Shown piece after piece: positions 3,622 through 21,011 of a DNA stretch of 29,660 bases. Position numbers and translations under genes: made by a program. The stretch covers positions 1 to 29,660 of IMG/VR virus record IMGVR_UViG_3300028731_000018. One strand, 5' to 3'. Source of the DNA: a virus. The first letter of the stretch is position 1; each line of letters starts with the position of its first letter. The notes beneath the pieces are model-generated. The model was not told the origin of the DNA. It ran no database searches and worked only from the letters and a program-made list of their open reading frames with translations.

Positions 3622-3807
3622 TTACTGCCGCAGCAATTGGTTGATGGTGGACACGCGGTTCTGGGACAGCGTGTCCTTGGGGTGGCGCTCGAGGTGCGCC
3701 ATGATGCCAGCCAGTTGCCGGTTGAGGCGCTTGGCCAGCGAGCTGTTGGCGCAGGTGTTGTTCACCTTGCCCTTGGTCTTGCGTGGTGGGTTCACTTTGT
3801 CGGTCAT
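3622..3807 (-). CDS. 61-aa basic helical protein resembling ribosomal protein S15 core
   Basis: The C-terminal half contains AHLERHPKDTLSQNR, which matches the helix signature of ribosomal protein S15 (in E. coli GHFAEHKKDHHSRRG): H-hydrophobic-x5-D-x2-S at the same spacing, plus the second His and the Lys before Asp. The protein is shorter than S15 (about 89 aa), has a basic disordered N-terminus and a helical C-terminus. It directly abuts the VRR-NUC stop with zero gap. It could be a true S15-like rRNA/mRNA-binding protein or a convergent basic helical hairpin. The resemblance is seen; the function is inferred. Confidence 0.75.
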   Translation of the reverse strand: MTDKVNPPRKTKGKVNNTCANSSLAKRLNRQLAGIMAHLERHPKDTLSQNRVSTINQLLRQ

Positions 3808-4113
3808 TTAGTGTCGTCCTTTGATCAGTAAGGCTACGGTGGCAATCATCATATCGCAACTCTCCTGACTGTCGACCACGAAGGTGATGCCGCCAGCCGT
3901 CTGTATCATTTTCATGTTCCCCGCTTGCATCGGGGTCGGTTTTTTTCCGGGGGCTTTCGTCTCGATGCAGATGAACCAGCCGTCGATGCAGCACAGGAAG
4001 TCGAGCGACGTCGCGCCGAACCCTGTCTGCACCGGCATGAACTTGTAGTGCTTGGGGAAGTGCGTGTTGAGCGCGATCTTCACCATCGCTTTGATCTTAC
4101 CCTCGGGTGTCAC
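3808..4113 (-). CDS. VRR-NUC domain nuclease
   Basis: 101 aa, a compact PD-(D/E)XK-type VRR-NUC domain: GATSLDFL with the metal-binding Asp at about 38, then FICIETKAPGKKPTPMQ with the E-x-K pair at about 51/53 and the family's downstream Gln. Stand-alone phage VRR-NUC proteins are structure-selective nucleases, active for example on four-way DNA junctions. It starts with GTG, sharing GTGA with the upstream gene's stop. The likely job is resolving recombination or replication intermediates before packaging. Confidence 0.92.
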   Translation of the reverse strand: MTPEGKIKAMVKIALNTHFPKHYKFMPVQTGFGATSLDFLCCIDGWFICIETKAPGKKPTPMQAGNMKMIQTAGGITFVVDSQESCDMMIATVALLIKGRH

Positions 4114-4472
4114 GGCAGGGCTTTCAGGAATGCCGCGTGGTCAGGGCGGTTGTATTGCCAGAAATTTTTATATTGCGGGTGCATCACAGAGAACACCCGG
4201 GCCAGATCAGGCGCTCTCGCGTTGCTGATCTTGAACGTTGGCTCTGTCTGCCGGACGTCTGAATGATGCACCAACAACTCCACGATCGTTCGGGCGCTAT
4301 AATGCGTCCACCCGGCATCGATAAGCTGTTGCGCATGGGCTTCGAAGGCAACGTAAACATGCCAGTTGTCTTTGCCATCCAGCCATTCGAGGAAGTCGTG
4401 TTTGAAGAACGGCTCGTATTTGAGCAGTTGCTGCGCCGCCGCTGGCGGGATCGGGATTTGTTGGTTACTCAC
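4110..4472 (-). CDS. Conserved phage protein of unknown function
   Basis: About 120 aa starting at a GTG (4472) with a strong GGAGG site 5 nt upstream. An ATG at 4511 in the same frame lacks a good site and would overlap the upstream gene. Visible features are EPFFKHDFLEWLDGKDNWHV, YSARTIVELLVHHSDV and FKISNARAPDLARVFSVMHP, suggesting a small mostly helical globular domain. I know this only as a conserved phage protein without assigned function. It is coupled by GTGA to the VRR-NUC gene, so a DNA-processing partner is possible. Confidence 0.78.
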   Translation of the reverse strand: MSNQQIPIPPAAAQQLLKYEPFFKHDFLEWLDGKDNWHVYVAFEAHAQQLIDAGWTHYSARTIVELLVHHSDVRQTEPTFKISNARAPDLARVFSVMHPQYKNFWQYNRPDHAAFLKALP

Positions 4473-4485
4473 ATCCACCTCCGTC

Positions 4486-4806
4486 TCACATCCATTTCCC
4501 AAATCCTTCACTGCTCTTTTCTGAAACTGGGGCCGTTTTTTCCGCCGGCTCGAGCACTTCGGCCGACGCCGGCTCGTTCTTGTTCTTTACTGCCGCAGTA
4601 CGCTTCGGCGCCTTCGGCAGGATCGCGAGGCACGAGATCACCGCCTCACCAGGGGTTAAGCCCCGGCCCTCCACATAGGTGTGCCCAGTCGATGGCGTAG
4701 CTCGGCAGGTCCAGTAGGTGGTCTTATGGTCGGCCGACGGGACGGGCCACAACGATAGGTGACATAGGCCCTTGCTCGCTGCGTCCGCCAGCATCTCCTC
4801 GATCAT
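4486..4806 (-). CDS. Hypothetical phage protein
   Basis: 106 aa. The N-terminal 60 residues look folded (LCHLSLWPVPS, YWTCRATPSTGHTYVEGRG, PGEAVISCLAILPKAPKR). The C-terminal 40 are a Lys/Glu/Ala/Pro-rich, probably disordered tail. The ATG at 4806 has GGGAG at 7 nt. It overlaps the end of the upstream Trp-rich gene by 83 nt, an unusually long overlap for this window. The family is not recognised. Confidence 0.68.
   Translation of the reverse strand: MIEEMLADAASKGLCHLSLWPVPSADHKTTYWTCRATPSTGHTYVEGRGLTPGEAVISCLAILPKAPKRTAAVKNKNEPASAEVLEPAEKTAPVSEKSSEGFGKWM
4587..4601. promoter_or_regulatory. Imperfect copy of the TTACTG-N3-CAGTAA palindrome
   Basis: TTACTGCCGCAGTAC differs from the perfect palindrome only at the last base. 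It lies inside a coding region, encoding TAAV in the 106-aa protein. Related imperfect copies are at 3622-3636, 9127-9141, 10173-10187 and 14813-14827. Confidence 0.45.
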
Positions 4807-4987
4807 CGAACTTCTCCCTTAGCACATCTCGTGCGCGTTGCTGTGTGGTCTGGTAGTTGTAATAGACGATGCCGTCATACATGCTCGCGGGGTACAGCAC
4901 TTGCCGCCATGTGTAGCCCACCCAGCGTCTCGGGTGATACCACGGCACCTTGAACCAGAGGCCGCGCGGATTGAACTGCCAGCTCAT
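4724..4987 (-). CDS. Trp/Arg-rich small protein, paralog of the next upstream gene
   Basis: 87 aa starting at the ATG at 4987, which shares ATGA with the upstream stop and has AAGGA just before it. The core WQFNPRGLWFK...WYHPRRWVGYTW parallels WRFTPRWHWR...GYHNRRWVWDW of the adjacent gene, so the two are tandem duplicates. The last roughly 28 residues are Gly/Arg/Pro-rich and lie in the region overlapping the next gene. Short Trp/Arg-rich proteins may bind nucleic acid or peptidoglycan or act at membranes; nothing here decides between these. Confidence 0.66.
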   Translation of the reverse strand: MSWQFNPRGLWFKVPWYHPRRWVGYTWRQVLYPASMYDGIVYYNYQTTQQRARDVLREKFDDRGDAGGRSEQGPMSPIVVARPVGRP

Positions 4988-5319
4988 ATCCTTGCTTTCC
5001 TGCCCTTGGCGACGTGACTGCGCGCTGCGTGCTTCTGGACGGTGGTACCCGGTAGCAGGTTGAGCGCAGCCGCTTGGCTTTGCCGCGTCGGGCAAGCCTG
5101 CTCAGTGAGGATATCGAGCGCCGCGCGCTCGGGCGTCGCATACTGCCAGCTCCCGTCGTAGTCGCCAGCGAACGCCATCCAGTCCCACACCCAGCGCCGG
5201 TTGTGGTAGCCCAGCCAGTGCCGCCAGTGCCAGCGCGGCGTGAACCGCCAGTCGCCATAGGCGATCATTTCGTTGGGAGTGTCACCGGGACCGACCGTAA
5301 TTTTTTCGTACTCGTACAT
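4984..5319 (-). CDS. Trp/Arg-rich small protein (tandem paralog)
   Basis: 111 aa starting at the ATG at 5319 with GGAGG 4 nt upstream; longer in-frame starts run through the nuclease gene and lack a site. After a short Tyr/Glu N-terminus comes the Trp/Arg module WRFTPRWHWR...GYHNRRWVWDW, then ATPERAALDILTEQ, which parallels QQRARDVLREKF in the downstream paralog, and a basic tail. Coupled to the next gene by ATGA. Function unknown. A TGCCCGACGCGGCA element (5081-5094) lies within it. Confidence 0.7.
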   Translation of the reverse strand: MYEYEKITVGPGDTPNEMIAYGDWRFTPRWHWRHWLGYHNRRWVWDWMAFAGDYDGSWQYATPERAALDILTEQACPTRQSQAAALNLLPGTTVQKHAARSHVAKGRKARI

Positions 5320-6402: not shown

Positions 6403-6417
6403 CTACTGCCGCAGTAA
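6403..6417. promoter_or_regulatory. Near-perfect TTACTG-N3-CAGTAA palindrome
   Basis: CTACTGCCGCAGTAA, one mismatch from the perfect palindrome, lies in the 43-bp gap upstream of the gene starting at 6378. It is a candidate operator or promoter element shared with other sites in the window. Confidence 0.55.
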
Positions 6418-7388: not shown

Positions 7389-9352
7389 TTGGCAGCTCCA
7401 TATGATGAACCTTCACCCAACTCAGCATCAAGCGGAATATCGGGTCCCCACGTAGGTGGGCGTTTCATCTCTTCTAAGATAATCTTCTTAGCTAAGTCAA
7501 CACCCGTTTTCTTCACGATGAACACAAGTTCGTCATGCGCCTGCAATCGGAAGCGGTAGTCCTCGGGGTTCGCCGTGCTAAGTCCGCGCGCGCGGATGCG
7601 GAGCGCCGCGTTCATGACCACGATGCGGGCCAGCGCCTGCACGATGTTCTCCAGCAGCTTGGCCCCGTACAGCCGATGCCACGTCTTGCCGTAGCGGTAG
7701 CGATACTCGGTGCGGTTGGTTTCGGGATCGAAGCGCTGGCCCGGGTCGGCATATAATAAAGAGAGGCCGCTCGGCAGGACCACCTCGCCGTACTTTATAA
7801 TGCACGGCCCGAACTTCACCTGCCCGCCGCTCGGCGTCAGCCAGAACGCGCCGATGTGCCCATTGAGGATATTCCACGCGCGCGGCATCTGGTGGTAACG
7901 GCGGCGATACGTGGTCACGGCCTTGTCGCCCAGTGCGCGGTTGTAAATCTTGGAAATGTCCAGCCCGTCTTTGCGCGCGGACATGATCACCATGCCGTCG
8001 AACTTGTCCTTGCCGGCGCCATAGCCCAGCCCAAGGATGCCTGTCTTGCCTATGAACCCCTCAATCGGGAAGATCAGCTCGCCGTTGGGGTGTTTCAGCT
8101 TCCTGTTCACGGGATAGCCGAAGATGTCGGTAGCCAGTTGCGAGTATGGGTCCTTCTTGTCGCGGAACTCTTGCACAAGGGTCGTACAGCCACTGATCCA
8201 TGCCGCGATGCGGGCTTCGATCTGCGACAAGTCGCATGTCACCACAGTCTCGTCATCACAGACGACGAGGCTCTGTCGTAATTTGCTTTTACCTTTTGAT
8301 CCGCGGACGGTCGGCATGTTCTGGGGGTTCATTTTCCACTCCCCAGAGAGCCTATGAGTGTGCGCCCCGCCATATCGCAGAGGGATCGGCATGAAGCTGG
8401 CGCCTGTCCAGTCGAGGCGCGAGGCTCCCCAGTTGCACCCTGCAACGCTTATGAACTTCATGGTGCGGGTTTCTTCCAGCGTGGACTTCAGGCCCAGCCT
8501 AGCTGTCGCCAGTGCCGAGACATACGGGTCCACGTCTGCTTGCAGTTTCTCCATGAACTCGTCGGTCTTGGCGAATGCCGGGACCAGGGCGCCTGTCGGG
8601 GATATCTTCTCTTCGACGTCAACGCCACATCGCTCTAGCTCGTCACGAAAGCGATCGGTGCTCATGAGCAGCTTGGGATCGATATTGTTGGCATCGCGGA
8701 GCAGTTGCGCCTTGGCGTCCTGCACGTCGACCAGATGCGCGTTCAGCATCTTGGTGTCGCACAGGAAGCGGGGCTCTACTGCGCACCTCAGCGTCATGTC
8801 CATCAGCCGGCGCTCGGCGGGCGGGAAGCCGGGATAGAGGATTTTCAGCGCGGCTTCGCAAATCTCGTTGTCGCGGATCGCGTAATCTTCGAAGTCTTTC
8901 ATCAGGCCGCGGCCTATGATCTCGTCCCGCCGCATGCCCATCACATTGGCGAGGGCAGTGCCCTTGGCCGGCAGATTGAAATGGTCGGCGATGGCTTTGA
9001 GCGACACACCGTGTTTCAGCTCGTGGCCTATGAGCGCGCGGGCCATGCCCATCACGTCCAGCATCAAATCTGGCACCCAGCCGTAGCGATAGCTCAGGAT
9101 CGAGTTATCGAACAAGCTGTTGAAACTTACTGTCGTAGTAATTTTGGGATCAAGCGAGGCGAGGAATGCCGGGAAGTCCGGCCCCTGCACAATCCGGTGC
9201 AGGGGCTCGTTGTTCAGTCTGACCGCGGCAATCTGTAACTCAAACCTCTGGTCTAAGATGTAGTTGGGGGTGGGCATCTTACGCAACGAGTAATCTTTGT
9301 CGTAATAGGTCTCAAGATCAAAGATCAGGAAGTTGCGCTTCGTTGGGGACAT
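7385..9352 (-). CDS. Family A DNA polymerase with 3'-5' exonuclease
   Basis: 655 aa. The exonuclease domain has IFDLETYY (Exo I, D12/E14), FNSLFDNS (Exo II, about 77-84) and YAIRDNE (Exo III, about 157-163). The polymerase domain has motif A CDLSQIEARIAAW (about 373-385), motif B around IGKTGILGLGYGAG (about 434-447) and motif C AHDELVF (about 605-611). All catalytic residues are present, so an active proofreading replicative enzyme is expected, similar in size to T7-like phage polymerases. No 5'-nuclease domain is present. The ATG at 9352 follows the upstream gene by 8 nt; downstream it couples to the DUF4406 gene. Confidence 0.97.
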   Translation of the reverse strand: MSPTKRNFLIFDLETYYDKDYSLRKMPTPNYILDQRFELQIAAVRLNNEPLHRIVQGPDFPAFLASLDPKITTTVSFNSLFDNSILSYRYGWVPDLMLDVMGMARALIGHELKHGVSLKAIADHFNLPAKGTALANVMGMRRDEIIGRGLMKDFEDYAIRDNEICEAALKILYPGFPPAERRLMDMTLRCAVEPRFLCDTKMLNAHLVDVQDAKAQLLRDANNIDPKLLMSTDRFRDELERCGVDVEEKISPTGALVPAFAKTDEFMEKLQADVDPYVSALATARLGLKSTLEETRTMKFISVAGCNWGASRLDWTGASFMPIPLRYGGAHTHRLSGEWKMNPQNMPTVRGSKGKSKLRQSLVVCDDETVVTCDLSQIEARIAAWISGCTTLVQEFRDKKDPYSQLATDIFGYPVNRKLKHPNGELIFPIEGFIGKTGILGLGYGAGKDKFDGMVIMSARKDGLDISKIYNRALGDKAVTTYRRRYHQMPRAWNILNGHIGAFWLTPSGGQVKFGPCIIKYGEVVLPSGLSLLYADPGQRFDPETNRTEYRYRYGKTWHRLYGAKLLENIVQALARIVVMNAALRIRARGLSTANPEDYRFRLQAHDELVFIVKKTGVDLAKKIILEEMKRPPTWGPDIPLDAELGEGSSYGAAK

Positions 9353-9360: not shown

Positions 9361-10074
9361 CTACAGGTAATAAGTTCGCTGTTCAGTCTGCCATCTCTGA
9401 CCATCGACATTAGCGCTCACTGCTTGAAACGTCAACCACAAATGGTCGCGTGAGGGGGATCGATGGTCTGTCGGCAAGAACCGTGCAGCAGCGATCGTTG
9501 CCAGTGTCCGGCGGATCATGGGCGTCACCTCGGCAATGCCGGGCGGGGTATGGAAACGCGAGGGGGTGTCCTGCAGATCGGCCAGTGCCGGCGCGTTGCT
9601 ACATAGCTCCAGTATCGGCGGCCAGTAGTAACGGATCGCGCCGGGCGTGGCGTTCTTGTTCAGCCACCTAAGCAGATATTTGCACTCTTCGAACTGCTGG
9701 TGGATGCCGCTCATCACTTCTATGTGAAGTAGCAGTGCTTCACTGCCCTCTTGCAGGAACAAAGCAGTGGGCTGGATCGCTGGCCAGTTGCAGGGATCGC
9801 GGTAGTTAACGACGAAGTTCGAGCCCGCAGCGATCGGATACGCGATCACATCCGATGCCGCACTAACTAAATGGAATGCCGCCGCTGCACGCTCCAGCAC
9901 ATTGGGGGGGAACAGCAGCTTCACAGTGTCCTCGCGGGATTTCTCCCATGGCGCCATGGCGCTCATGTAGCGGGCGCACAGGATGTTAAGATTGTTGAGG
10001 CCCGCTTGCATGTGGACGTCGCCCAATGACGAGCGTTCTTCGCGGCCACCTAGCCGTTTGCGAGTGTATGACAT
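9361..10074 (-). CDS. Conserved phage protein upstream of DNA polymerase
   Basis: 237 aa from the ATG at 10074, which has GGAGG 8 nt upstream; in-frame starts further upstream lack a site. A basic N-terminus (MSYTRKRLGGREER) is followed by a mostly helical, Ala/Leu-rich body with CNWPAIQP, LLLHIEVMSGIHQQFEECKY and IRYYWPPILEL. No catalytic motif is recognised. Its position immediately before the polymerase suggests a replication factor, but this is inference. A 17-bp perfect hairpin lies in its leader (10113-10168). Confidence 0.78.
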   Translation of the reverse strand: MSYTRKRLGGREERSSLGDVHMQAGLNNLNILCARYMSAMAPWEKSREDTVKLLFPPNVLERAAAAFHLVSAASDVIAYPIAAGSNFVVNYRDPCNWPAIQPTALFLQEGSEALLLHIEVMSGIHQQFEECKYLLRWLNKNATPGAIRYYWPPILELCSNAPALADLQDTPSRFHTPPGIAEVTPMIRRTLATIAAARFLPTDHRSPSRDHLWLTFQAVSANVDGQRWQTEQRTYYL

Positions 10075-10112
10075 ATCTCGTTCCTCCATTCGTGAGATTT
10101 GACTTTTGCTCC

Positions 10113-10168
10113 GTGAGTTGTTATCCCGCAAGCGCGTGCACGGGCAGCGATGCGGGATAACAACTCAC
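10113..10168 (-). repeat. Perfect 17-bp inverted repeat in the leader of the 10074 gene
   Basis: Arms GTGAGTTGTTATCCCGC (10113-10129) and its exact complement (10152-10168) flank a 22-nt loop that itself contains the palindrome CGTGCACG. It lies between the VWA gene and the 10074 gene. On the transcribed strand no U-run follows, so it does not look like a simple terminator; an RNA-processing site, attenuator or protein-binding DNA site is possible. A TTACTG-type palindrome copy lies 5 bp away. Confidence 0.8.
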
Positions 10169-10172: not shown

Positions 10173-10187
10173 TTACTGCGGCGGTAA
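10173..10187. promoter_or_regulatory. TTACTG-N3-CAGTAA palindrome, one mismatch
   Basis: TTACTGCGGCGGTAA lies directly downstream of the VWA stop and upstream of the 17-bp hairpin, in the only intergenic gap ahead of the polymerase genes. Candidate regulatory site. Confidence 0.5.
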
Positions 10188-11495
10188 TCATCGCTTCGGG
10201 TGGATACGAACGACGTCGCCGTAGGGGTACTTGACGTCCGTGGTGCTGGCCCAGATTGTCAGATAATCGGGCTCGTTTTTCGGGAAGCTGACGTAGCCGT
10301 CCGTGAACCCAATGAACACCTCAGGCCGTTCTTGGTGGGTATCGATCCAGTCCATCACCGGCGTGACGCTGGTACCGCCGCCACCGCCTGCACCGTCTTT
10401 GTCCAGCGATGCCTTCATAGCGGCCATGTCGGAGGCTTCAGCCAGCTCGTCGACACGGTGGATCGCCGCGTCACACCAGCAGATGCTCAACCGTTTCGGG
10501 CAGCAGTCATCCACGATCGCGCCCAGCTCGGCGAGATACTTGGACAACTCCAGCTGGCTGATTGAGCCAGAGGTATCGCACCAGACGACCACCCAGCCGG
10601 CGCCATTGCCGGACTTGGACGGCAGCGCGATATCCTGCCAGATGTAACGGCGATCGGGCTTGCGCCAGTTGTAGCTGCCGCTACCGACCTTGCGGTTGAA
10701 GATGCCGCGGATGTGATCGGTCCAAGGCACTTCAGGTTCAAGGATATCCTTGAACATGCGCTTCAGCGCCCCGGCCATGTTACCTTGCGCCTTCATGTTC
10801 TCCAGCGTCTGTGCGGCCGCCATTTCGACGCCCCACTGCTGGGAATTGCGCTGGTGCTGCTTACCGTTGGACTTCCCAGGCTTCAGCAGCTTATCGAACG
10901 GCTGGTGCTTACCCGTCTTGCTGCCGCCGCTCTCTTCGTCCTCATAGACACGCTTGTAGACTTCGCAGATGCCGTCGCTGGCTTTGGCGATGGTGTCATC
11001 GCACAGCACATTCGGCGGCATGCTGCCGATCTTGCTGTCGCGCAGCAGCGGGTTGATCCGGAAGTCCATCGCCTTCTGCATTGTTTCCTCGCGGAACGGC
11101 AGTGATCCACCGCCGTCCATCGGGACTACGCCACGCTGGGCGCATACCCGTAGGAACTCCACGTCGCCATACACATTGTGCATCACTTCGTGACCGATAA
11201 TGAACACGCGCTCTTTCAGATTGTACTTGCTGAAGAACGGATCGGGATTGATCAGGATGTTCTGCGCGTCGGTCGCTGCTGTCGGCACGTCTCGCGTCGG
11301 CACGATGCCGTACTTGCCGTCATTGTTGATCAGCAGCTTGTAGAACAGATGGCGGAAGCCGGGCGCTGTCCAGCTCATGAGGCTCATAGTCTCGCCCCAT
11401 GCAGCTTCCTGCGCGGGAGTGAGCACACAAGGCTCGGGCATCTTGTCTTCCACTTCCTGATCAGGCGGTGGCGGGGCGATTTTGGTCTTGGCCAT
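10188..11495 (-). CDS. VWA-domain protein with metallopeptidase-like N-terminus (DUF2201 type)
   Basis: 435 aa. The N-terminal half carries FIIGHEVMHNVYGD with HEXXH at about 102-106. The C-terminal half is a von Willebrand A domain with a complete MIDAS: DTSGS (about 307-311), Thr in GGGGTSVTP (about 375) and Asp in FTDGY (about 399). This matches the putative metallopeptidase/VWA pair known as DUF2201. Family members normally work with a MoxR-type AAA+ ATPase, here encoded three genes upstream. The ATG at 11495 shares TAATG with the upstream stop. The target is unknown; a host or phage complex remodelled by the ATPase and gripped by the VWA domain is a reasonable model. Confidence 0.92.
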   Translation of the reverse strand: MAKTKIAPPPPDQEVEDKMPEPCVLTPAQEAAWGETMSLMSWTAPGFRHLFYKLLINNDGKYGIVPTRDVPTAATDAQNILINPDPFFSKYNLKERVFIIGHEVMHNVYGDVEFLRVCAQRGVVPMDGGGSLPFREETMQKAMDFRINPLLRDSKIGSMPPNVLCDDTIAKASDGICEVYKRVYEDEESGGSKTGKHQPFDKLLKPGKSNGKQHQRNSQQWGVEMAAAQTLENMKAQGNMAGALKRMFKDILEPEVPWTDHIRGIFNRKVGSGSYNWRKPDRRYIWQDIALPSKSGNGAGWVVVWCDTSGSISQLELSKYLAELGAIVDDCCPKRLSICWCDAAIHRVDELAEASDMAAMKASLDKDGAGGGGGTSVTPVMDWIDTHQERPEVFIGFTDGYVSFPKNEPDYLTIWASTTDVKYPYGDVVRIHPKR

Positions 11496-11920
11496 TATCT
11501 GTCCTCATCGTTCAGGGTTTCACTAATGAGACGAATTTTGCTGTACGCATTCTTCGCCTCCATGATGCACTTCCAGATATCCTCCTCAAGTGCTTCTTGG
11601 TCGAACCGCGACAACCGTTCGATCAGGAAGCGCTCGGCGAACGAACGGAACCGGGTGTCAGGGCTGCGTCGGGCAGTGGCTTGTCCCGCGGCCGGCATTA
11701 CCGCCTGAGCCATGCCAGACGCATTGTTCTGCTGCGAACCCTGAACCATGGTCGCAAGCTGTCCCACCCGCTGCTGGCTCGAGACTGTATCGTAGCCTTT
11801 GCGATACGCGCGGTTCAGCGCCGGATCACAGTTCTGCAGATAGCTTGGCGGGATGCCTTGTCGGGCATGCTGCGCCCCCTCGGCGTAGGCGCGCCGCTCG
11901 TCGGGGTTGCTATAGGCCAT
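11495..11920 (-). CDS. Small protein inside the AAA+/VWA cassette
   Basis: 141 aa. The N-terminus (NPDERRAYAEGAQHARQGIP, then AYRKGYD) has an A-x3-G-x2-A-x2-G spacing followed by Cys and a second AYRKGYD, weakly like ribosome modulation factor folds. A Gln/Ser/Ala-rich linker leads to a helical C-terminus (FAERFLIERLSRFDQEALEEDIW). The ATG at 11920 has GGAGG 9 nt upstream. Tight overlap with both neighbours suggests it is an adaptor or regulator of the ATPase/VWA pair. The RMF comparison is tentative. Confidence 0.75.
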   Translation of the reverse strand: MAYSNPDERRAYAEGAQHARQGIPPSYLQNCDPALNRAYRKGYDTVSSQQRVGQLATMVQGSQQNNASGMAQAVMPAAGQATARRSPDTRFRSFAERFLIERLSRFDQEALEEDIWKCIMEAKNAYSKIRLISETLNDEDR

Positions 11921-12197
11921 TTTTCAGCGCCTCCATCATCTCGCTGCTGATCGGCTGAATTTCGTCGTCCTCAACCAGCCCGTTGATATCCTTCAGGTCC
12001 ATCAGCATGATGTTCCTGTGGGCATAATGATTAGTCTCGCTGTTCATGTCCACCTTGGTTGAGCCCTTGATATCAGTGAGCAGCTCGGCAGTTGCGACCA
12101 GCTGCTGGCACGCTTTTAAGAATGTCTTTTCGAACTCTGGCGCCTTGCCGCTGTCAGTGAAGTTGACCCGCAAGCGCAAATTGAACTCTGTCTGCAT
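11910..12197 (-). CDS. Small protein inside the AAA+/VWA cassette
   Basis: 95 aa beginning MQTEFNLRLRVNFTD, with an excellent GGAGGAG site 3 nt before the ATG at 12197. It appears to be a beta-rich N-terminus followed by helices; the end overlaps the next gene by 11 nt. The family is not recognised. A perfect TTACTG palindrome sits 16 nt upstream of the start, immediately before the ribosome binding site, so this gene and those after it may start a transcription unit or be regulated there. Confidence 0.75.
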   Translation of the reverse strand: MQTEFNLRLRVNFTDSGKAPEFEKTFLKACQQLVATAELLTDIKGSTKVDMNSETNHYAHRNIMLMDLKDINGLVEDDEIQPISSEMMEALKNGL

Positions 12198-12212: not shown

Positions 12213-12227
12213 TTACTGTGGCAGTAA
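12213..12227. promoter_or_regulatory. Perfect TTACTG-TGG-CAGTAA palindrome
   Basis: A perfect copy in the 71-bp gap between the AAA+ stop and the 95-aa gene, placed just ahead of that gene's ribosome binding site. Candidate operator. Confidence 0.7.
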
Positions 12228-12268: not shown

Positions 12269-13435
12269 TTATTGCGACAACGCGCTCAATACCGTGACGA
12301 GCGTTGCGTTCTTCGCGATCCAAGCCTGCATCGCCGGGTGGTTGACGATGCCCTTGTAGTCGCGTCGGAGCAGGGCCGAAATGAACGTGATGCTCATATC
12401 CTTGGGCATTTTCGTTCCCTGCGCGTCTGGCGTCGTCATGTACTCGATGACTTGCGCCAGATGCTCGGACTTTGCATACGATGCCAGTTGGTAGGCCATC
12501 AGCATTTGCATGTCCGCCTTGGTCGGACGAGGCGTGCCCTTGGGATCAGCGACAACATCCTCATACGCTGGCAGCTGAAGCATGAACTCCAGATGCGCTA
12601 ACAGGCTCTGTGCGGCCGGCTGACCGATCGTGCCTGCGATTGCCGTGATGGTGTTCGCGTCCACCTCGGTATTGCCCTGATCCTCCCACTTCACTTGCAG
12701 GTATCGATCTACGGCACACAGCTGCCGCGGGTTGCACCACGGTCCCTGCTCCTTGGGCTCGCCCTCGAACAGGATATCCGGGTGGTTCTTGGCCCAGGCT
12801 TTGATCACCGGGGTAGTCTGCCATTTGCGCCCTTGGTGAACGTATGGCTTGTCGGCGAATGCCAGCCACAACTCGGCGTCTGGGTCGATGTGGATCGCAG
12901 TACGGCGTGCGATACAGAAGTCAAAGTCTTTGGTCACGCCATATCGTGGCCCAACATTCGTAGCGCCAACACGAACTGAGCCGGGTGGAAGATACCACGG
13001 CGCAGTGCCGCCATTGAGCAGGATTTCAGCGGCTGACCGCTTGGTGTCCGGCTCGCCCTGACCGTACTCGTCAAGGATCAGGAAGCAGCGATCGAACATG
13101 AACGCGGGCTGCGGCGGTCCGCCCAGTCCGTCCGTCATCATGTACCAGAGCGGGCAGCTCGGGTCGGTGACAGTGATGGTGCGCTCAACACCGTCGATCA
13201 TGTATTTGCGCTCGCCCTTGAACAGAACGCCCACCATGTCCATCGGCGTTTGGGTCGCCAAGAACACTGTGCTGACGCCCCAACGAACTCCGGTCTTGAG
13301 GCCCTCGTCGCGGAGCTGCTCGAATACTGAATAGAGCATCTGGCTCTTGCCAAAGCCCGACTGGCTGTCCACTAGAACAGCGTTGCCGGCTTTCGCCATT
13401 GCCATGATCTCTGCTCGTGCCTGCATAAGGTTCAT
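12269..13435 (-). CDS. MoxR-like AAA+ ATPase
   Basis: 388 aa from the ATG at 13435 with GGAG 5 nt upstream. Walker A is SQSGFGKSQ (K30/S31), Walker B CFLILDEYGQ (about 117-126), sensor-like RVGATN (about 155-160) and arginine residues in CIARRT (about 174-179). The MoxR group loads or remodels protein complexes and is typically linked to VWA proteins, as in the RavA/ViaA pair. The matching VWA protein is encoded downstream (10188-11495) with two small proteins between. A TGCCCGACGCGGC element and a GTGGCGT/ACGCCAC hairpin lie in its 90-bp leader. Confidence 0.9.
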   Translation of the reverse strand: MNLMQARAEIMAMAKAGNAVLVDSQSGFGKSQMLYSVFEQLRDEGLKTGVRWGVSTVFLATQTPMDMVGVLFKGERKYMIDGVERTITVTDPSCPLWYMMTDGLGGPPQPAFMFDRCFLILDEYGQGEPDTKRSAAEILLNGGTAPWYLPPGSVRVGATNVGPRYGVTKDFDFCIARRTAIHIDPDAELWLAFADKPYVHQGRKWQTTPVIKAWAKNHPDILFEGEPKEQGPWCNPRQLCAVDRYLQVKWEDQGNTEVDANTITAIAGTIGQPAAQSLLAHLEFMLQLPAYEDVVADPKGTPRPTKADMQMLMAYQLASYAKSEHLAQVIEYMTTPDAQGTKMPKDMSITFISALLRRDYKGIVNHPAMQAWIAKNATLVTVLSALSQ

Positions 13436-13495
13436 GATCTCTCCTCTTTGTTGGGGCTGACGGCCTTCGTCAGGTGGCGTCTCACGCCACGATGG

Positions 13496-13509
13496 CGCCG
13501 CGTCGGGCA
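13496..13509 (-). repeat. TGCC-CGACGC-GGC leader element
   Basis: On the minus strand TGCCCGACGCGGCG, 61 nt upstream of the AAA+ start, followed by a 7-bp hairpin (GTGGCGT/ACGCCAC, 13475-13491) and then the ribosome binding site. Same element as at 1378 and 5081. Confidence 0.55.
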
Positions 13510-13525
13510 CGGCACCATTTCGGCC

Positions 13526-13753: not shown

Positions 13754-14359
13754 TTACGTCAGTCCAAGCATCTCATTAAGTGCCTGCATTTGTACAGCAG
13801 GAACTCCGATCGGCGGCGCAACAAGCGGCGGCGAGGCGAAGAACTTTTTGCCCTCGGGCCAGATGGTGACTAGCTTCTCGGTGGTGCGCACGCTCTTCAG
13901 CAGCAGCTTCAGCGTGGCTTCGGCACTGGTCTTGTCTTTCTTCAGCGTCTCGCTGTCGCCCTGCCACTGCCTGATCTCGTTGACCAGCTTCTCGTGCTTG
14001 TCGAGCGACAGTATGCCGTAATTGTCGTAGTTGTAGTAGTTGTATGGCACAGCCACCTCGATCCGCTTGGAAAACTTGCCTTCTGCATCCTTCGCGAAAT
14101 ACTTTGCTTGCAGCAGCACAGTCTGCCCGGCGACGTTGATCTTCAGCTGGTTCGTCATCTTGAACCACTCGATATTGGGCCGCCCTTCAACGGCCCTGAA
14201 CTTCTCGATCATGTGGCGCATTGAGAGCGGCGTCACCGCGTTGTAAGCGCGAACGAACAAGTCTTGCTCGTGCTTTTCGAGTTTGATCTGCTCGTCAATG
14301 AATTTCTTCATTGTGGCGTTGCGAATGATCTCTTGTCGGATGGCTTGATTTAACTGCAT
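13754..14359 (-). CDS. Conserved phage protein, possibly Nmad5-like
   Basis: 201 aa. The N-terminus MQLNQAIRQEIIRNATMKKF followed by an acidic/basic helix and a beta-rich middle (KINVAGQTVLLQAKYFA) resembles the phage family annotated as nucleotide-modification-associated domain 5. The assignment is from overall pattern only. A Tyr/Asn-rich patch (PYNYYNYDNYG) precedes a long helix (ETLKKDKTSAEATLKLLLKS). It could be a structural or regulatory small protein instead. The gap to the next gene is only 3 nt, so it is in the same transcript. Confidence 0.72.
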   Translation of the reverse strand: MQLNQAIRQEIIRNATMKKFIDEQIKLEKHEQDLFVRAYNAVTPLSMRHMIEKFRAVEGRPNIEWFKMTNQLKINVAGQTVLLQAKYFAKDAEGKFSKRIEVAVPYNYYNYDNYGILSLDKHEKLVNEIRQWQGDSETLKKDKTSAEATLKLLLKSVRTTEKLVTIWPEGKKFFASPPLVAPPIGVPAVQMQALNEMLGLT

Positions 14360-14578: not shown

Positions 14579-14691
14579 TACGACCTCCCTGTTGGAATGG
14601 ACAGCAGGATCACCATCACGCCAAGCGTGACAATAAAGCCCTGCTGGTTGTTGAAGCCGATGTAGATCGCGAGAATGCCCGCGATCCTCAC
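14578..14691 (-). CDS. 37-aa membrane microprotein
   Basis: GTG at 14691 shares GTGA with the stop of the upstream gene; TAG ends at 14578 and shares a base with the next start. The product (starting MRIAGILAIYIGFNN, then GFIVTLGVMVILLSIP) has two short hydrophobic stretches. The two-sided start-stop overlaps and the fit of the flanking genes support it as real. Confidence 0.6.
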   Translation of the reverse strand: MRIAGILAIYIGFNNQQGFIVTLGVMVILLSIPTGRS

Positions 14692-15347
14692 GGCGTTGTC
14701 TTGTAGGTGCCGAGACGCTTGCGCAGGCTGTCGCGGGCATTGATGATCTCAGGGCTCTTGTCCTGCGCAGTGCCGTGCGACGCACTGCCATCGATCAGCT
14801 TGTCAAGCCGCTTTACTGTGGCAGCAATGATATCGGCGGCGCTCATGTCGTCGGGCTGCGGGCGGAACAGGAACTGGTCCAGCTGGTCCTCAGGGATCAG
14901 GTGGTCGATCTTCATTTGCGCCCTCGCATAGTTGAGGATGCAGTTCTGCGCGTCATAGAGCGTCTTGGCGACCGCAGGGTTGGCTTTGTGCTTGGCGCGG
15001 CGTGCCAGCAATTCGTTGGTGGTGTTGATCGGCTCGCCAACGCCACCCTTGGGCCATGCACCGAACCGCACCATGGCGCGGACACAGCTTGCTACCTTGC
15101 TGTGCTTCGGCGATTTGGTATCGAGTGGCGCATTGCCGGTCGATGCCGTGACATACTCCATGGCGATCTTGCCGGCATCGTCAATGTCGGCGCCATGCTT
15201 GTTGTGCTTCAGGTCGAGCACACCCAGGTAGCTGCCCTCCAGTGTCTGGAGCATCAGCTTGGCTTGGGTATCCTTGCCCTTGCCGCTCGCTGTGCCCAGC
15301 TCACGGGCGATAGCGAGCACGTCGTCGAAACTTGGTTTGTTCGTCAT
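14688..15347 (-). CDS. Conserved phage protein of unknown function
   Basis: 219 aa from the ATG at 15347 with AAGGA 6 nt upstream. The sequence starts MTNKPSFDDVLAIARELGTA, includes a His/Lys-rich turn (LDLKHNKHGADIDDAG) and a helical C-terminal part. I know no function. A TTACTG-type palindrome copy (14813-14827) lies within it, and a TGCCCGACGCGCC element sits about 60 nt upstream of its start. Confidence 0.78.
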   Translation of the reverse strand: MTNKPSFDDVLAIARELGTASGKGKDTQAKLMLQTLEGSYLGVLDLKHNKHGADIDDAGKIAMEYVTASTGNAPLDTKSPKHSKVASCVRAMVRFGAWPKGGVGEPINTTNELLARRAKHKANPAVAKTLYDAQNCILNYARAQMKIDHLIPEDQLDQFLFRPQPDDMSAADIIAATVKRLDKLIDGSASHGTAQDKSPEIINARDSLRKRLGTYKTTP

Positions 15348-16143: not shown

Positions 16144-16339
16144 CGTTGCCACCTTTTTCCTTGGCGATCGTGGTGGCGCGACGTTGCGCCACCTCCTGGA
16201 GGATCATCATTACACCATCGGCCATCAAGCCGCACGCCGCCATGGTGGTAATCAGCTCGCGACGCTCCGCTATCGCGTGGAGCGCCTTGCTGATCGCGCG
16301 GATTTGCGTGTTGTAGAACTCGCCATCCTCGAACGTCAT
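16118..16339 (-). CDS. Hypothetical 73-aa helical protein
   Basis: The ATG at 16339 shares ATGA with the upstream microprotein stop and has no ribosome site of its own, so translation is probably coupled. A helical, Met/Ala-rich product (ALHAIAERRELITTMAACGL, MADGVMMILQEVAQRRATT). Its codons include one of the two identical 22-bp palindromes of the window (16172-16193). Confidence 0.62.
   Translation of the reverse strand: MTFEDGEFYNTQIRAISKALHAIAERRELITTMAACGLMADGVMMILQEVAQRRATTIAKEKGGNDGLSNEKS
16172..16193. repeat. 22-bp palindrome, copy 1 of 2
   Basis: 8-bp arms GGTGGCGC and GCGCCACC flank GACGTT. An identical 22-bp sequence is at 19100-19121, outside any gene. This copy lies in coding sequence. 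Confidence 0.7.
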
Positions 16340-16476
16340 TGGGGTAACACTTCGACTGCCCAGAGGATCAGCTGCAACAGCAGCCAATAGGTGATGGCAG
16401 CGCTGCACAGCGCAAGGAACATCCCGAAGGCGCGCCAGTGATGCAGGTGCCGGCCGTAGCGTTGCTTAATCCGCAT
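16336..16476 (-). CDS. 46-aa single-pass membrane microprotein
   Basis: The ATG at 16476 lies 8 nt inside the end of the alpha-CTD-like gene, with AAAGG 7 nt upstream; the TGA shares ATGA with the next gene. A basic, His/Arg-rich head (MRIKQRYGRHLHHWR) precedes one long hydrophobic helix (FGMFLALCSAAITYWLLLQL). Positive-inside topology predicts a cytoplasmic N-terminus. It fills what would otherwise be an unexplained gap in a fully packed operon. Confidence 0.65.
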   Translation of the reverse strand: MRIKQRYGRHLHHWRAFGMFLALCSAAITYWLLLQLILWAVEVLPQ

Positions 16477-16879
16477 TGATCAACCTTTCTATGGTTTTGG
16501 GGGTGATATCCTCGCGCAGGTACAGCCCACGGCGCTGCAATTCTTCGCGCAAGTCCGCGAGTGAGTGCAGACCGAAGTTAGGCAAGCGCCTCAACTCTGC
16601 TGCCGACATTGAGATTACATCGCGCAACGTGCGGCAGTTCGCGTACTTCAGGCAATTCGCAACGCGAACGCTGACTTCCATCTCATCGGCCAGCTCGTCC
16701 AGCGGGTCAACGATTTCAGGCGGCTGCGCAGCAGCGAGCATGGCCTTGCGGAGTTTATCGTTGCGCTCAATGAGCGCGACGTTCTTCTGTGCATAGTCGA
16801 TGAACAGTCGCTTGACGTTCAAATCGAGACGCTCGAACGCTAACAAGGCGTTGTCTAGCGTCGGTATATAATTGCCCAT
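16466..16879 (-). CDS. RNA polymerase alpha-subunit C-terminal-domain-like protein
   Basis: 137 aa. Residues about 1-50 form a charged helix or coiled coil. Residues about 58-121 match the RpoA C-terminal domain: VSVRVANCLKYANCRTLRDV aligns with the E. coli stretch around VRSANCLKAEN, and LPNFGLHSLADLREELQRRG with [20 protein letters not shown]. The UP-element DNA contacts corresponding to E. coli R265, N268, C269, G296 and S299 are kept; K298 is His. It could bind AT-rich UP elements or activators, or dimerise through its coiled coil to redirect host polymerase. The ATG at 16879 shares TAATG with the upstream stop. Confidence 0.9.
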   Translation of the reverse strand: MGNYIPTLDNALLAFERLDLNVKRLFIDYAQKNVALIERNDKLRKAMLAAAQPPEIVDPLDELADEMEVSVRVANCLKYANCRTLRDVISMSAAELRRLPNFGLHSLADLREELQRRGLYLREDITPKTIERLINAD

Positions 16880-17199
16880 TACCTTGCTCCCTTGTCACCC
16901 GCACGACGGCACCAAATTGTGTGCACCTTGTCAAGTTCTTCCTGCTGGATGCGCGCCCAAACGCTCTCGTTCACTTGGTGAACGGGCATGCACAGCTCCA
17001 CTTGGGGCATTTGCTCGTCCTCATCGCTAATTACTGCGGCAGTAAACGCGATCTCGCGATCGACCACCGCAATGTTCAGCGGGTTGATCTCGCCGTGGTG
17101 CGCATGGTGCCACACCTCGAACAAGCGTCTTGCCACATGGGCAGAAGACGCCTCAATTGTCCTTGAAACTTCGCAGTGGCTCACTCGATACATGTTCAT
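16879..17199 (-). CDS. Hypothetical phage protein
   Basis: About 106 aa from the ATG at 17199 with GGAG 9 nt upstream; earlier in-frame starts overlap the upstream gene further. The sequence (MNMYRVSHCEVSRTIEASSA, then HVARRLFEVWHHAHHGEINP) has a His cluster. The core IAVVDREIAFTAAVISDEDE looks like a small alpha/beta domain. A perfect TTACTG palindrome (17031-17045) is inside the gene. Not recognised. Confidence 0.68.
   Translation of the reverse strand: MNMYRVSHCEVSRTIEASSAHVARRLFEVWHHAHHGEINPLNIAVVDREIAFTAAVISDEDEQMPQVELCMPVHQVNESVWARIQQEELDKVHTIWCRRAGDKGAR
17031..17045. promoter_or_regulatory. Perfect TTACTG-CGG-CAGTAA palindrome (intragenic)
   Basis: A perfect copy inside the 106-aa gene, encoding FTAAV, about 150 nt upstream of the alpha-CTD-like gene start on the transcribed strand. 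A regulatory site or an internal promoter element is possible. Confidence 0.6.
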
Positions 17200-17467
17200 A
17201 GCGCACTTCTCCATCTTCCAGGGTTGCAATTAGCGTGCCATTGTCGATAGCTTCCAGCACGCACTCAAGTTCGGGCCGATAGCCGCCATCGTTGGCAGCT
17301 TTCTGCTTGCGGTGACACACCCAGCACAGCTTCAGCCCGATCTCTTTCTTGTCGGCACACAATAGACAGAAGTTCAGCTCGCGATGTTTCGTGTGCCACG
17401 CCGTGATACGATTGGTGTCGCCGGCAAATGCCGTCGGGTAATTTTGCTTGTCCTGCTTCGTCGGCAT
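17153..17467 (-). CDS. Small zinc-finger protein
   Basis: 104 aa with CLLC (34/37) and CWVC (48/51), a four-Cys zinc site with an 10-residue spacer, followed by a charged C-terminal part. The ATG at 17467 has GGAG 10 nt upstream. It is in the promoter-proximal part of the leftward operon with the alpha-CTD-like gene, so a nucleic-acid-binding or transcriptional role is plausible but not shown. Confidence 0.72.
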   Translation of the reverse strand: MPTKQDKQNYPTAFAGDTNRITAWHTKHRELNFCLLCADKKEIGLKLCWVCHRKQKAANDGGYRPELECVLEAIDNGTLIATLEDGEVRYEHVSSEPLRSFKDN

Positions 17468-17579: not shown

Positions 17580-17594
17580 TTACTGTGGCAGTAA
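17580..17594. promoter_or_regulatory. Perfect TTACTG-TGG-CAGTAA palindrome ahead of the leftward operon
   Basis: It lies 33 nt upstream of the first microprotein start and about 57 nt beyond the terminator-like hairpin at 17651-17712, so it is placed where the promoter of the long leftward operon should be. Likely an operator or part of the promoter. Confidence 0.65.
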
Positions 17595-18169: not shown

Positions 18170-18725
18170 TGGTAATTAGGTAGTGGTTTGGGGCTTCAGA
18201 AAAACAGGTTGCTTTTTGGTAATGTTAGGGGATGGAACCCGAGTACAACCTGAATGGGTCTAAATGTCTAAATGTAATGTCATTTTTTGGGTGGGTCGTA
18301 TAGAGGGTCGCCCTATGGCCCGTGTACATTACAAAATTGTAACCTTTTTTTCTTGATGTTCCCGGCTCCGGCTAAGTCATTGTTTTCTTTATATATTTTA
18401 GTCCATAGTACCTTAAATCAAGAAGCTGCGCTGACATTTAGCTGCCGGGCGAAAATGACCTCAGGGGCCTTAGGGCGATTCTCTATATGCCCGACCCGAA
18501 AAAACACCTGACATTTAGACATTTAAAAATTTTTCGGGCGAAAAGGTAACAAGATCAAACACTTGTAAATGTCAGCACACTTTCCCCGGAGGCTGACATT
18601 AACACACAACCGCCTATGAGCGTAGAAAATAAACGCATTAATTCGCGATGCAACCTGCCGTTGCCCGACGGGGCGAGATTGCCGGGCCGAATAGCTCGGT
18701 CCGGTTTCACACAAAGGAACCTGAC
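18170..18725. other. AT-rich divergent intergenic region with TAAATGTC/GACATTTA repeats; candidate origin or control region
   Basis: No convincing gene is seen here. The stretch is much richer in A and T than its surroundings (for example 18380-18420 and 18509-18545). The 15-mer TAAATGTCTAAATGT at 18261-18275 has its exact complement at 18511-18525. Further copies of TGACATTTA/TAAATGTCA are at 18432-18440, 18509-18517 and 18566-18574, with weaker ones at 18275-18281 and 18594-18602. Repeats in both orientations around AT-rich DNA between divergent modules fit a replication origin with iterons or a multi-site regulator region; nothing decides between these. Confidence 0.6.
18662..18674 (+). 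repeat. TGCCC-GACG-GGGC leader element
   Basis: TGCCCGACGGGGC lies 51 nt upstream of the ATG at 18726. GCCC/GGGC form a perfect 4-bp stem around GACG. Compared with the minus-strand copies the stem bases differ while pairing is kept. A second hairpin (GGGCCGA/TCGGTCC, about 18684-18702) follows. Confidence 0.5.
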
Positions 18726-19099: not shown

Positions 19100-19121
19100 G
19101 GTGGCGCGACGTTGCGCCACC
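19100..19121. repeat. 22-bp palindrome, copy 2 of 2
   Basis: Identical to 16172-16193 (arms GGTGGCGC/GCGCCACC, loop GACGTT). Here it is intergenic, 14 nt after the stop at 19085, and the preceding word CAAGGCAAAGGTGGC is repeated at 19131-19145 at the start of the next hairpin. Confidence 0.7.
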
Positions 19122-19335: not shown

Positions 19336-19369
19336 GGGGCCTGAAAATATGTAGGGGGTAAAATCCGAG

Positions 19370-19388
19370 CCTTAAGACTTTATTAAGG
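19370..19388 (+). promoter_or_regulatory. Hairpin covering the ribosome binding site of the 19393 gene
   Basis: CCTTAA (19370-19375) pairs with TTAAGG (19383-19388), and AAGG is the only ribosome binding site for the ATG at 19393. Folding would hide the site, so translation could be controlled or be temperature-sensitive. The stem is only 6 bp and AT-rich. Confidence 0.4.
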
Positions 19389-19392
19389 TGGC

Positions 19393-20190: not shown

Positions 20191-20204
20191 ACTACGTACT
20201 AAAA

Positions 20205-20248: not shown

Positions 20249-20260
20249 ACGGCCGGCTTA

Positions 20261-20355: not shown

Positions 20356-20421
20356 ACCTTACTACCTTGACACGTTCCCGGCTGAGCAAAACAGCTCACT
20401 ACACAATGAAGTGATCGCGAC

Positions 20422-20595
20422 ATGATCTTGAATCCCGACAGCGTTCGACTAGCAGGCGAGCTGATCTTTGCCGCCATGCTGTTCGTCGGACTTGTGCTCT
20501 GGGCCGACAAGATCGAGAGTAAGAAGGCTGCACGCGCGCGCGACCGCGCCAAGCGGCTCACGCATAAGAGAGACGACGATGACAAACATGTTTAA
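20422..20595 (+). CDS. 57-aa single-pass membrane protein
   Basis: ATG at 20422, weak ribosome site. Short N-terminus, a transmembrane helix (LIFAAMLFVGLVLWA) and a very basic cytoplasmic-type tail ending in DDDDKHV. Arrangement and size recall spanin or small anchoring proteins, but no lipobox or partner is visible. It overlaps the next gene by 17 nt. Confidence 0.62.
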   Translation: MILNPDSVRLAGELIFAAMLFVGLVLWADKIESKKAARARDRAKRLTHKRDDDDKHV

Positions 20596-20878
20596 GGAGT
20601 GTCGACTTGCCGCACAGTCCTGCAAAGACGAGGTCAAGCGCGCCGCGCTACGTCATCGGACCGACGAGTGTAAAGAGGTCTTTGACCGGTTCAACCTGTC
20701 GGCATCTCGTGAGGACATGGAGGCTCTCGTTGCAGCTTGGACCCGCATGGTGCGTGCTCTTGATCGGGTGGCTCCTCTACCTGACGGTGATCCTGCTGGC
20801 GCCGGCCGGCTCCGCGCCCCTGGCACCACTTTTGTTCACGATCCTGACATATACGACGCCTTAAGGAAGGTAGCCTAA
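20579..20878 (+). CDS. Hypothetical helical protein
   Basis: 99 aa from the ATG at 20579 (GAGAG 6 nt upstream; a second ATG is 3 codons in). Charged helices with paired Cys (MFKECRLAAQSCKDEVKRAA, HRTDECKEVFDRF) and a Pro/Gly-rich C-terminal part. From about 20740 on, a different frame has the more phage-like codon use and encodes hydrophobic sequence, so the C-terminal half of this call is less certain. Confidence 0.6.
   Translation: MTNMFKECRLAAQSCKDEVKRAALRHRTDECKEVFDRFNLSASREDMEALVAAWTRMVRALDRVAPLPDGDPAGAGRLRAPGTTFVHDPDIYDALRKVA
20730..20864 (+). CDS. Possible nested 44-aa two-helix membrane protein
   Basis: A TTG at 20730 lies 6 nt after GGAGG, inside the 20579 gene in another frame. 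The product is strongly hydrophobic (WCVLLIGWLLYLTVILLAPA, then APLAPLLFTILTY), with two likely membrane helices split by a Pro/Gly turn. Third-position G/C is high in this frame. It could be a real overlapping gene or show that the 20579 frame shifts. Confidence 0.35.
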   Translation: MQLGPAWCVLLIGWLLYLTVILLAPAGSAPLAPLLFTILTYTTP

Positions 20879-20885
20879 ATAGAGA

Positions 20886-20975
20886 GTGGGCCCGCCCGCC
20901 CGTGGAGAAGCCGGCATAGCACCGGGTACTCTTGTCTGTTGGGGACGAGGCAGCGGCGGGTCCACTTAATTTTTC
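20886..20975 (+). terminator. Inverted repeat with U-rich tail before the 21033 promoter
   Basis: GTGGGCCCGCC (20886-20896) can pair with GGCGGGTCCAC (20955-20965) with one G-U pair; TTAATTTTTC follows. The 58-nt loop is long for a terminator, so it is a weak call, but its place between two transcription units fits. Confidence 0.4.
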
Positions 20976-21011
20976 TTGACACTCGCCCGGCGGCAGTTAC
21001 TGTGGCAGTAA
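20976..21011 (+). promoter_or_regulatory. Candidate sigma70-type promoter overlapped by a perfect TTACTG-TGG-CAGTAA operator
   Basis: TTGACA at 20976-20981 is a perfect -35. With a 16-bp spacer the -10 would be TACTGT (20998-21003), inside the perfect palindrome at 20997-21011. A protein bound to the palindrome would block this promoter or replace its weak -10. The promoter would drive the winged-helix gene at 21033 and the packaging genes after it. Confidence 0.6.

Follow-up and report, generated by a model that had tools for sequence, protein, structure and literature searches.

The 29,660 bases of the IMG/VR virus record IMGVR_UViG_3300028731_000018, hereafter called the window, carry dispersed copies of the 15-bp palindrome TTACTG-N3-CAGTAA. 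These copies belong to a set of sites whose half-sites have changed in concert among related phages, whose positions are partly conserved and which, within this phage group, co-occurs with a module of genes encoding a MoxR-like AAA+ ATPase, a DUF2201 protein and two proteins named here S95 and P219. Our reading, which we put forward tentatively, is that the palindromes are selected, genome-wide duplex DNA sites to which a self-specific phage protein binds as a dimer; this protein would be encoded by the module and may act at the sites as an operator-binding protein or a roadblock.

Palindromic sites in the window and in related phages

A sequence-only reading of the window had listed ten copies of the palindrome, four perfect and six near-perfect, and all ten were recovered at the positions it gave, the latter six with one mismatch each (Table 1). 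They exceed expectation from composition: ten copies at no more than one mismatch compare with a mean of 0.00 in 100 dinucleotide shuffles, none of which contained any copy at that level. When up to three mismatches were tolerated, 15 copies were counted in the window against 4.84 +/- 2.14 in the shuffles, so that the five additional three-mismatch matches correspond to the background level. The reversed pattern had no match in the window at up to two mismatches. Six of the ten copies lie between genes or extend over the end of one (3622, 6403, 10173, 12213, 17580 and 20997) and four lie inside open reading frames (ORFs; 4587, 9127, 14813 and 17031).

The window is part of a phage of about 66 kb, represented by the record IMGVR_UViG_3300031964_000021 (66,012 bases; G001), in which two query proteins are identical to those of the window and the palindromes of the window recur in the same order. 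G001 contains 21 copies, 6 perfect and 15 with one mismatch, and no copy with two mismatches. Relatives were found by a DNA polymerase search at about 40-65% identity, and seven of them have 15 to 38 copies each at no more than one mismatch. Eight genomes were then scanned for all inverted repeats with 6-base halves and spacers of 0 to 15, the motif not being assumed. In all eight the top repeat was a variant of a TTAC-N7/8-GTAA design: TTACTG-3-CAGTAA in G001 (6 perfect copies), TTACCG-3-CGGTAA in G002, G003, G004 and G005 (19, 21, 12 and 17 copies), GTTACA-5-TGTAAC in G007 (9) and GTTACC-6-GGTAAC in G006 (5) and in Rhizobium phage RHph_TM3_14A (15), referred to below as RHph. G013 has the variant TTACGG-3-CCGTAA (18). 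These results define a constant TTAC...GTAA core, a fifth base that varies among T, C, A and G, in the same way on either side, and a gap of 7 or 8. Both spacings can occur in one genome, RHph having 32 copies with N8 and 14 with N7, and G007 12 and 6.

CCGG-N5/N14 repeats come out on top in some genomes; their 9-base period points to collagen-like gene repeats and not to dispersed sites. In the window itself, neighbouring genes with collagen-like Gly-Pro-Thr repeats lie at 28333-29658 (+), and their 9-base periodicity imitates dispersed CCGG palindromes. An exact 15-mer scan of viral_contigs yielded 101 stretches, nearly all listed with one match, and was set aside. No palindrome was found in the scan of KPP25, and the Rollin scan, dominated by runs of N, was uninformative.

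One test that the sequence-only reading had set for its proposal was whether related phages keep the motif at corresponding positions. Sites were therefore mapped via homologous genes and compared with random placement; two-mismatch sites were excluded from these counts as well as from those of placement (RHph included), centres and orientation given below. Among G001-G005, shared positions were about 9 to 29 times as frequent as under random placement: 12 of 14 mapped sites were shared from G004 to G003 (random mean 0.54), 10 of 20 from G003 to G002 (0.48) and 6 of 16 from G001 to G003 (0.61). The comparisons with G007 involve small numbers, 1 to 3 sites against 0.14-0.33 at random. In total, for 7 of the 21 sites in G001 a homologous copy exists in one or more of the genomes G002-G005 and G007. 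The window site at 6403 has homologous copies in G003 and G004, that at 10173 in G003, and that at 12213 in G005 and G007, while in G002, G003 and G004 copies precede an N-terminally extended gene. The conservation is thus partial: 10 of the 21 sites lack a mapped position in at least one relative, and many are without a counterpart in a particular relative. Taken together, these observations support the palindromes as a phage-wide, selected set of sites.

Placement relative to genes was assessed in G001-G005 and G007 with gene maps from our own greedy calls, and in RHph with the deposited annotation. Mostly intergenic copies number 27 of 121 in the six genomes, against 8.5 expected, and 15 of 38 in RHph, against 3.7 expected. 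The intergenic copies are frequently found between a stop codon and the following start, and ten RHph copies stand 1-5 bases ahead of an annotated start codon. The suggestion that the palindromes form a promoter set is not supported, since 94 of the 121 copies are not mostly intergenic and the proposed overlap with a -10 element at 20997 is weak. There, TTGACA occupies 20976-20981 and the site begins 15 bases later; the hexamer 16 bases from TTGACA is TACTGT, which by eye agrees with TATAAT at 3 of 6 positions.

A gene module that accompanies the sites

We compared 11 palindrome-bearing genomes with 7 relatives without the palindrome. The first group includes two Bradyrhizobium relatives, B11 and B12, for which the unbiased scan is weak (leading repeat 3 to 7 copies). 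G025 and G028, whose module status was then unestablished, initially formed a middle group; G025 later proved to have the module and G028 to be without it. Out of 82 G003 genes profiled, only the families of P219, the MoxR-like ATPase, S95 and the DUF2201 protein were present in 11/11 bearing and 0/7 lacking genomes. Families seeded from G001 and RHph gave the same association. Both groups of genomes contain helicase, primase, portal and capsid genes. When the set was widened to 25 genomes, P219 and DUF2201_N were each detected in the same 15. These 15 genomes have 5 to 25 TTAC-N7-GTAA each, except G006 (4, plus 14 with N8), and the ten genomes without the module (G017-G024, G027 and G028) have 0, 0, 1, 4, 0, 0, 0, 0, 1 and 4, respectively.

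Loci of at least 12 kb were counted after matches of CCGG, GGCC or ACAC make-up had been set aside as artefacts. Of 20 such loci containing P219 or S95, 17 had a palindrome; the numbers were 11 of 27 for loci with MoxR/VWA genes only and 8 of 67 for those with none of these. At least four of those 8 (L220, L274, L275 and L336) are truncated pieces in which a TTAC-type palindrome occurs, and the whole genomes of L220, L274 and L275 contain the module. Copies precede the S95 gene in several genomes. The polymerase tree requires 3 changes in the palindrome label, of which well-supported branches force at least 2; G027 and G028 are without the module and their tree neighbours G007 and G025 have it.

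Table 1. Palindrome copies and genes of the window considered in this study
Feature	Position	Strand	Remarks
Palindrome, 1 mismatch	3622..3636		TAA stop of a 61-aa minus-strand ORF within site; 1 nt ahead of next ATG
Palindrome, 1 mismatch	4587..4601		within ORF 4486-4806 (minus)
Palindrome, 1 mismatch	6403..6417		between stop codon and next gene start (GTG 6378, 24 nt)
Palindrome, 1 mismatch	9127..9141		within DNA polymerase gene
P256, module-associated protein	9361..10131	-	in 10/11 palindrome-bearing and 0/7 lacking genomes
Palindrome, 1 mismatch	10173..10187		halves TTACTG / CGGTAA; immediately past stop of DUF2201 gene
DUF2201_N putative metallopeptidase and DUF2201 VWA-like protein, module gene	10188..11495	-	HExxH in translation
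S95, 95-aa acidic protein, module gene	11910..12197	-	
Palindrome, perfect	12213..12227		15 nt ahead of ATG of S95 gene
MoxR-like AAA+ ATPase, module gene	12269..13510	-	phrog_1297, E 8.9e-39
P219, 219-aa protein, predicted all-helical; best candidate binder	14688..15347	-	
Palindrome, 1 mismatch	14813..14827		within 3' part of P219 gene
Palindrome, perfect	17031..17045		within ORF 16879-17229 (minus)
Palindrome, perfect	17580..17594		intergenic; 112 nt upstream of leftward ORF 17153-17467
Palindrome, perfect	20997..21011		ATG of winged-helix gene 21 nt further on
HTH_23 and OmpR-type winged-helix protein; rival candidate binder	21033..21659	+	

The DUF2201 gene of the window matches PF13203 (E 1.2e-19) and PF09967 (E 2.3e-19), and homologues of its product were found in 407 of 50,697 phage records. 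The MoxR-like protein of the window had no Pfam match at E 0.1, and weak AAA matches (AAA_5, E 3.7e-4, below the cut-off) were obtained with a distant homologue. Inside the module region, a gene at 13754-14359 (-) encodes a nucleotide modification associated domain, Nmad5 (PF18757, E 2.2e-23), whose family was present in 4/11 palindrome-bearing and 0/7 lacking genomes. Seven loci of remoter polymerase relatives (L027, L028, L038, L044, L050, L054 and L088) have other palindromes (GTAGTG-3, AGGGAG-0, GTTAGT-6, CCCGTC-3); in the stretch examined, a DUF2201 gene is present in all seven and a MoxR-like gene as well in six.

Other repeats were observed in the window. A perfect inverted repeat of 18 bp with a 20-base loop (10113-10130 and 10151-10168) adjoins the palindrome at 10173. 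A 22-bp inverted repeat, GGTGGCGCGACGTTGCGCCACC, is present in two identical copies, one per arm (16172-16193 and 19100-19121), and a 64-nt inverted repeat, 81% complementary (18261-18324 and 18462-18525), lies in the kilobase of lowest G+C content. Scans for RNA families and tRNAs found none. At 16466-16879 (-), a 137-aa ORF matches the RNA polymerase alpha C-terminal domain (PF03118, E 7.4e-14); no homologue of it was found in the seven relatives compared. Such a phage-borne domain could touch host transcription.

The candidate binder and the role of the sites

We infer that the protein binding the palindromes belongs to the module and is most likely P219. Its family was detected in all palindrome-bearing genomes tested and in no genome lacking the palindrome. 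A palindrome copy lies 6-7 nt ahead of the P219 gene in B11 and B12; the deposited P219 start of RHph is preceded, at 34 nt, by a copy with two mismatches. The structure model of P219 is all-helical with a predicted local distance difference test (pLDDT) value of 88.6. Aligned with PDB entries by VIA-align, it gave a best Z of 6.6 over 74 residues, and against a viral library it retrieved two unnamed or uncharacterised relatives; no match to P219 was found in the phage collection. The protein is basic in the window (isoelectric point 9.1) and in the window clade. The S95 model is poor (mean pLDDT 69.4).

Rates of change were used, with residue scans, to rank candidates only. Columns conserved in the TTACCG genomes were selected, and the changes in the lineages with T and G half-sites were expressed relative to the G005 control. 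The ratios were 1.25 for P219, 1.08 for S95 and 1.06 for P256, about the control rate, and lower for MoxR (0.36), DUF2201 (0.47), the polymerase (0.56) and the winged-helix protein (0.31). The faster relative change of P219, S95 and P256 in the two lineages with switched half-sites weakly suggests that the binder may be a module protein.

Under the reading that we favour, P219 would bind the palindromes as a dimer and, once bound, could serve at dispersed operators or as roadblocks through which transcription of the entire phage genome is set. The ATPase/metallopeptidase pair might then remove or remodel the bound protein, so switching the programme.

Several observations weigh against this reading. 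A simple operator model does not predict the intragenic majority of the sites. The link between module and palindrome is strong but is based on few independent events, and the poorly resolved capsid tree forces only 1 change. In G025 the palindrome is weak despite the module (5 copies, 2 perfect), leaving a thin margin over the 4 copies of G020 and G028. No DNA-binding fold was recognised in P219, for which Foldseek found no match under E 0.7 in the PDB, and the protein is acidic or neutral in RHph, B11, B12 and G006. The rate test is unspecific, VRR-NUC (1.19) and several structural or unknown genes (1.5-2.4) being as high or higher. Moreover, MoxR-like/DUF2201 genes occur without a clear dispersed palindrome in N4, RHph_I1_6, Pa2 and At2 (50 kb scanned for each). 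The first three are Schitoviridae with an annotated ATPase near a DUF2201 homologue, and Acinetobacter phage At2 has a DUF2201 homologue; the nearest thing to a site set in these four phages is three copies of TTACC-N5-GGTAA in RHph_I1_6. Six distant relatives also have MoxR-like and DUF2201 genes, with no detectable P219, and four of the six are without a clear palindrome. Among them, G031 has a clear set of GTTAG-N7-CTAAC (10) and TTAGTG-N4-CACTAA (6), all inside about 15 kb; G032 has four copies in about 2 kb, these two genomes having been scanned over their first 60,000 bases; G033 has at most 4 weak copies (GTTAC-N6), and three have none. The MoxR-like/DUF2201 pair alone is thus insufficient, and recognition may be carried by P219 or by another gene beside MoxR. 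Profile comparison detected no relation between P219 and the gene beside MoxR in the distant relatives.

It is possible, though less probable than the operator or roadblock role, that the palindromes are not transcription operators and instead serve the module itself for loading, self-tagging or architectural purposes, in genome protection, replication, compaction or packaging. Such a role would agree with the majority of copies being intragenic and in all parts of the genome, with the presence of an ATPase in the module, with the occurrence of the system in phages without a detected integrase and with a half-site specificity that varies among relatives, as self/non-self discrimination would predict. 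In some genomes the sites are spaced a little more evenly than chance would give, an equally even arrangement arising in 4.7% (G003) and 6.6% (G001) of random placements; in the four other genomes evenness is not significant. Against it stands the intergenic excess described above, with several copies directly ahead of module genes, which suggests a regulatory share. We also consider, as a rather unlikely elaboration, a self-recognition machine in which P219, with S95/P256, would read a phage-specific palindrome and, at about 20 sites along the genome, load or target the metallopeptidase-VWA protein and the MoxR-like ATPase. Phage DNA would thereby be marked as self for transcription, protection or processing, and specificity would switch via a concerted change of one half-site base or via a change of spacing between 7 and 8.

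A comparable gene pair has been described in jumbo phages, in the part of the source considered here (PMC7824862), as a MoxR AAA+ protein and a VWA protein with an N-terminal metallopeptidase, for which a role in virion assembly was proposed. Like N4 gp24/gp25, it resembles the present module in having a DUF2201-type protein beside an ATPase. Unlike the phages studied here, N4 and the other phages scanned have no clear dispersed palindrome.

Comparison with known site systems and significance

The sequence-only reading had likened the layout to the stoperators of mycobacteriophage L5. The likeness stands for the number and dispersal of the sites; a close analogy does not, the sites being symmetric, with no clear orientation preference among intergenic copies, and no integrase or HTH_3 domain being detected in the window phage. 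As described in the part of Mavrich and Hatfull (2019; PMC6550527) considered here, Cluster A stoperators (L5, Bxb1) are likewise tens of dispersed sites, most of them away from promoters, with a motif that diverges among relatives along with the system; those of the L5 clade are predominantly in one orientation. By contrast with that description, the present site is a symmetric palindrome of 15-18 bp without clear orientation, it is tied to the MoxR-like/DUF2201 module and not to a recognised repressor family, and it occurs in phages without a detected integrase. We consider it improbable that the palindromes are L5-like stoperators through which a lysogeny repressor ensures prophage silencing and immunity, despite the resemblance to Cluster A (PMC6550527, same part) in number, dispersal, mixture of intergenic and intragenic sites and concerted divergence.

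The integrase domains PF00589 and PF00239 and the HTH_3 domain were each found in 0/9 phage records (the window, G001, G002-G007 and RHph). The annotated 'integrase' of RHph matches DUF927 and has a homologue in every palindrome-bearing genome. On the other side, relatives reside in two Bradyrhizobium genomes. In Bradyrhizobium sp. 139, phage genes occupy the end of one contig, C111, on which genes for quinolinate synthetase and glycyl-tRNA synthetase are also found, and the beginning of another, C166. On the latter, genes for polyprenyl synthetase and ketoacyl synthase come after a large serine recombinase. This recombinase (L269, 3435-5165) has Recombinase, Resolvase and zinc-ribbon domains, and we infer that the two pieces are one integrated prophage. 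Strain Rp7b has a relative in a 60,568-base contig with tyrosine-recombinase-like ORFs named by eye; the one that was scanned matched no Pfam model. TTAC-N8-GTAA is concentrated in the phage parts, with 11 of 19 copies in 60.6 kb of an 8.7 Mb genome and 18 of 26 in those of a 7.9 Mb genome. The two Bradyrhizobium relatives thus look like prophages. Because they appear to differ in integrase (serine by Pfam, tyrosine by eye), lysogeny seems to have been added to an older site set; and with no PF00589, PF00239 or HTH_3 in the nine records, the site system seems, as far as domain content indicates, independent of lysogeny in this group. Partition by ParB/parS was rejected, ParB_N (PF02195) being found in 0/9 palindrome-bearing records.

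The winged-helix protein encoded at 21033 had been named as a candidate binder. It matches HTH_23 (E 2.3e-6) and, just below the cut-off, the OmpR-type C-terminal domain PF00486 (E 1.7e-5, 25.2 bits against a cut-off of 26.2); its profile matches OmpR-type DNA-binding domains with a best E of 2.4e-4. A perfect site lies 21 nt upstream of the gene, and TTAC-N7-GTAA shares the 4-7-4 geometry of the CtrA box TTAA-N7-TTAA, so that a phage CtrA/OmpR-like regulator could be imagined as the binder. This is doubtful. The family is present in 7/7 palindrome-lacking genomes, which speaks against it as the binder, and a different gene module tracks the palindrome. It was not found in the palindrome-bearing G006, nor in G004, whose record misses the neighbouring genes; it changes slowly in the lineages with switched half-sites, and G002, G003, G005 and G007 have no site directly upstream of it. 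The CtrA boxes of alphaproteobacterial phages, as presented in the part of PMC9437464 considered here, resemble the palindromes in having two 4-bp half-sites 7 bp apart and in occurring in phages, and the relatives of the window phage infect or reside in the same host class. They differ from them in sequence (TTAA/TTAA against TTAC/GTAA) and in being concentrated in few regions, whereas the palindrome is dispersed, largely intragenic and spaced by N8 in some relatives. True TTAA-N7-TTAA boxes exist separately from the palindromes at 19372 and 28584 of the window (2 against 0.05 expected), and are above chance in G001 (4), G003 (6) and G013 (5).

RNA hairpins with a stem of 6-7 bp and a loop of 3-4 nt, governing translation at ribosome-binding sites, are very unlikely. 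They would suit the ten RHph copies just ahead of start codons, where a Shine-Dalgarno-like stretch is seen by eye, and the 15 of 30 single mismatches that retain a G-U pair in the transcript. The other 15 break the pair, and most copies are intragenic. The centre of 105 sites is nearly always Y-N-R (47 C-N-A, 26 C-N-G, 19 T-N-G, 11 T-N-A and 2 others), and the C-N-A centre is unable to pair. In transcript orientation, C-N-A exceeds T-N-G by 36 to 12 in coding copies, with no clear strand preference in intergenic ones (11 against 7). The unpairable centres and the intergenic orientation counts argue for DNA rather than RNA, and a symmetric duplex DNA site fits best. Chance or codon composition, for which one might invoke a GC-rich region with other repeats, is refuted by the shuffles, by the concerted variants that the unbiased scan revealed in relatives and by the conserved positions.

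Searches of titles and abstract openings on dispersed palindromes and stoperators, MoxR/DUF2201 phages and RHph_TM phages found no publication describing this system. To our knowledge, the dispersed binding-site sets known so far are all in temperate phages with a repressor. The present set is linked, through joint presence and absence, to a MoxR-like/metallopeptidase-VWA module for which a role, in the part of PMC7824862 considered here, is so far only proposed. The half-sites of the set, switched in concert around a fixed core, provide a natural series for following how the specificity of a protein shifts jointly with that of its dozens of genomic sites, and the system can be tested in the cultured Rhizobium phage RHph_TM3_14A and in the prophage of a cultured Bradyrhizobium.

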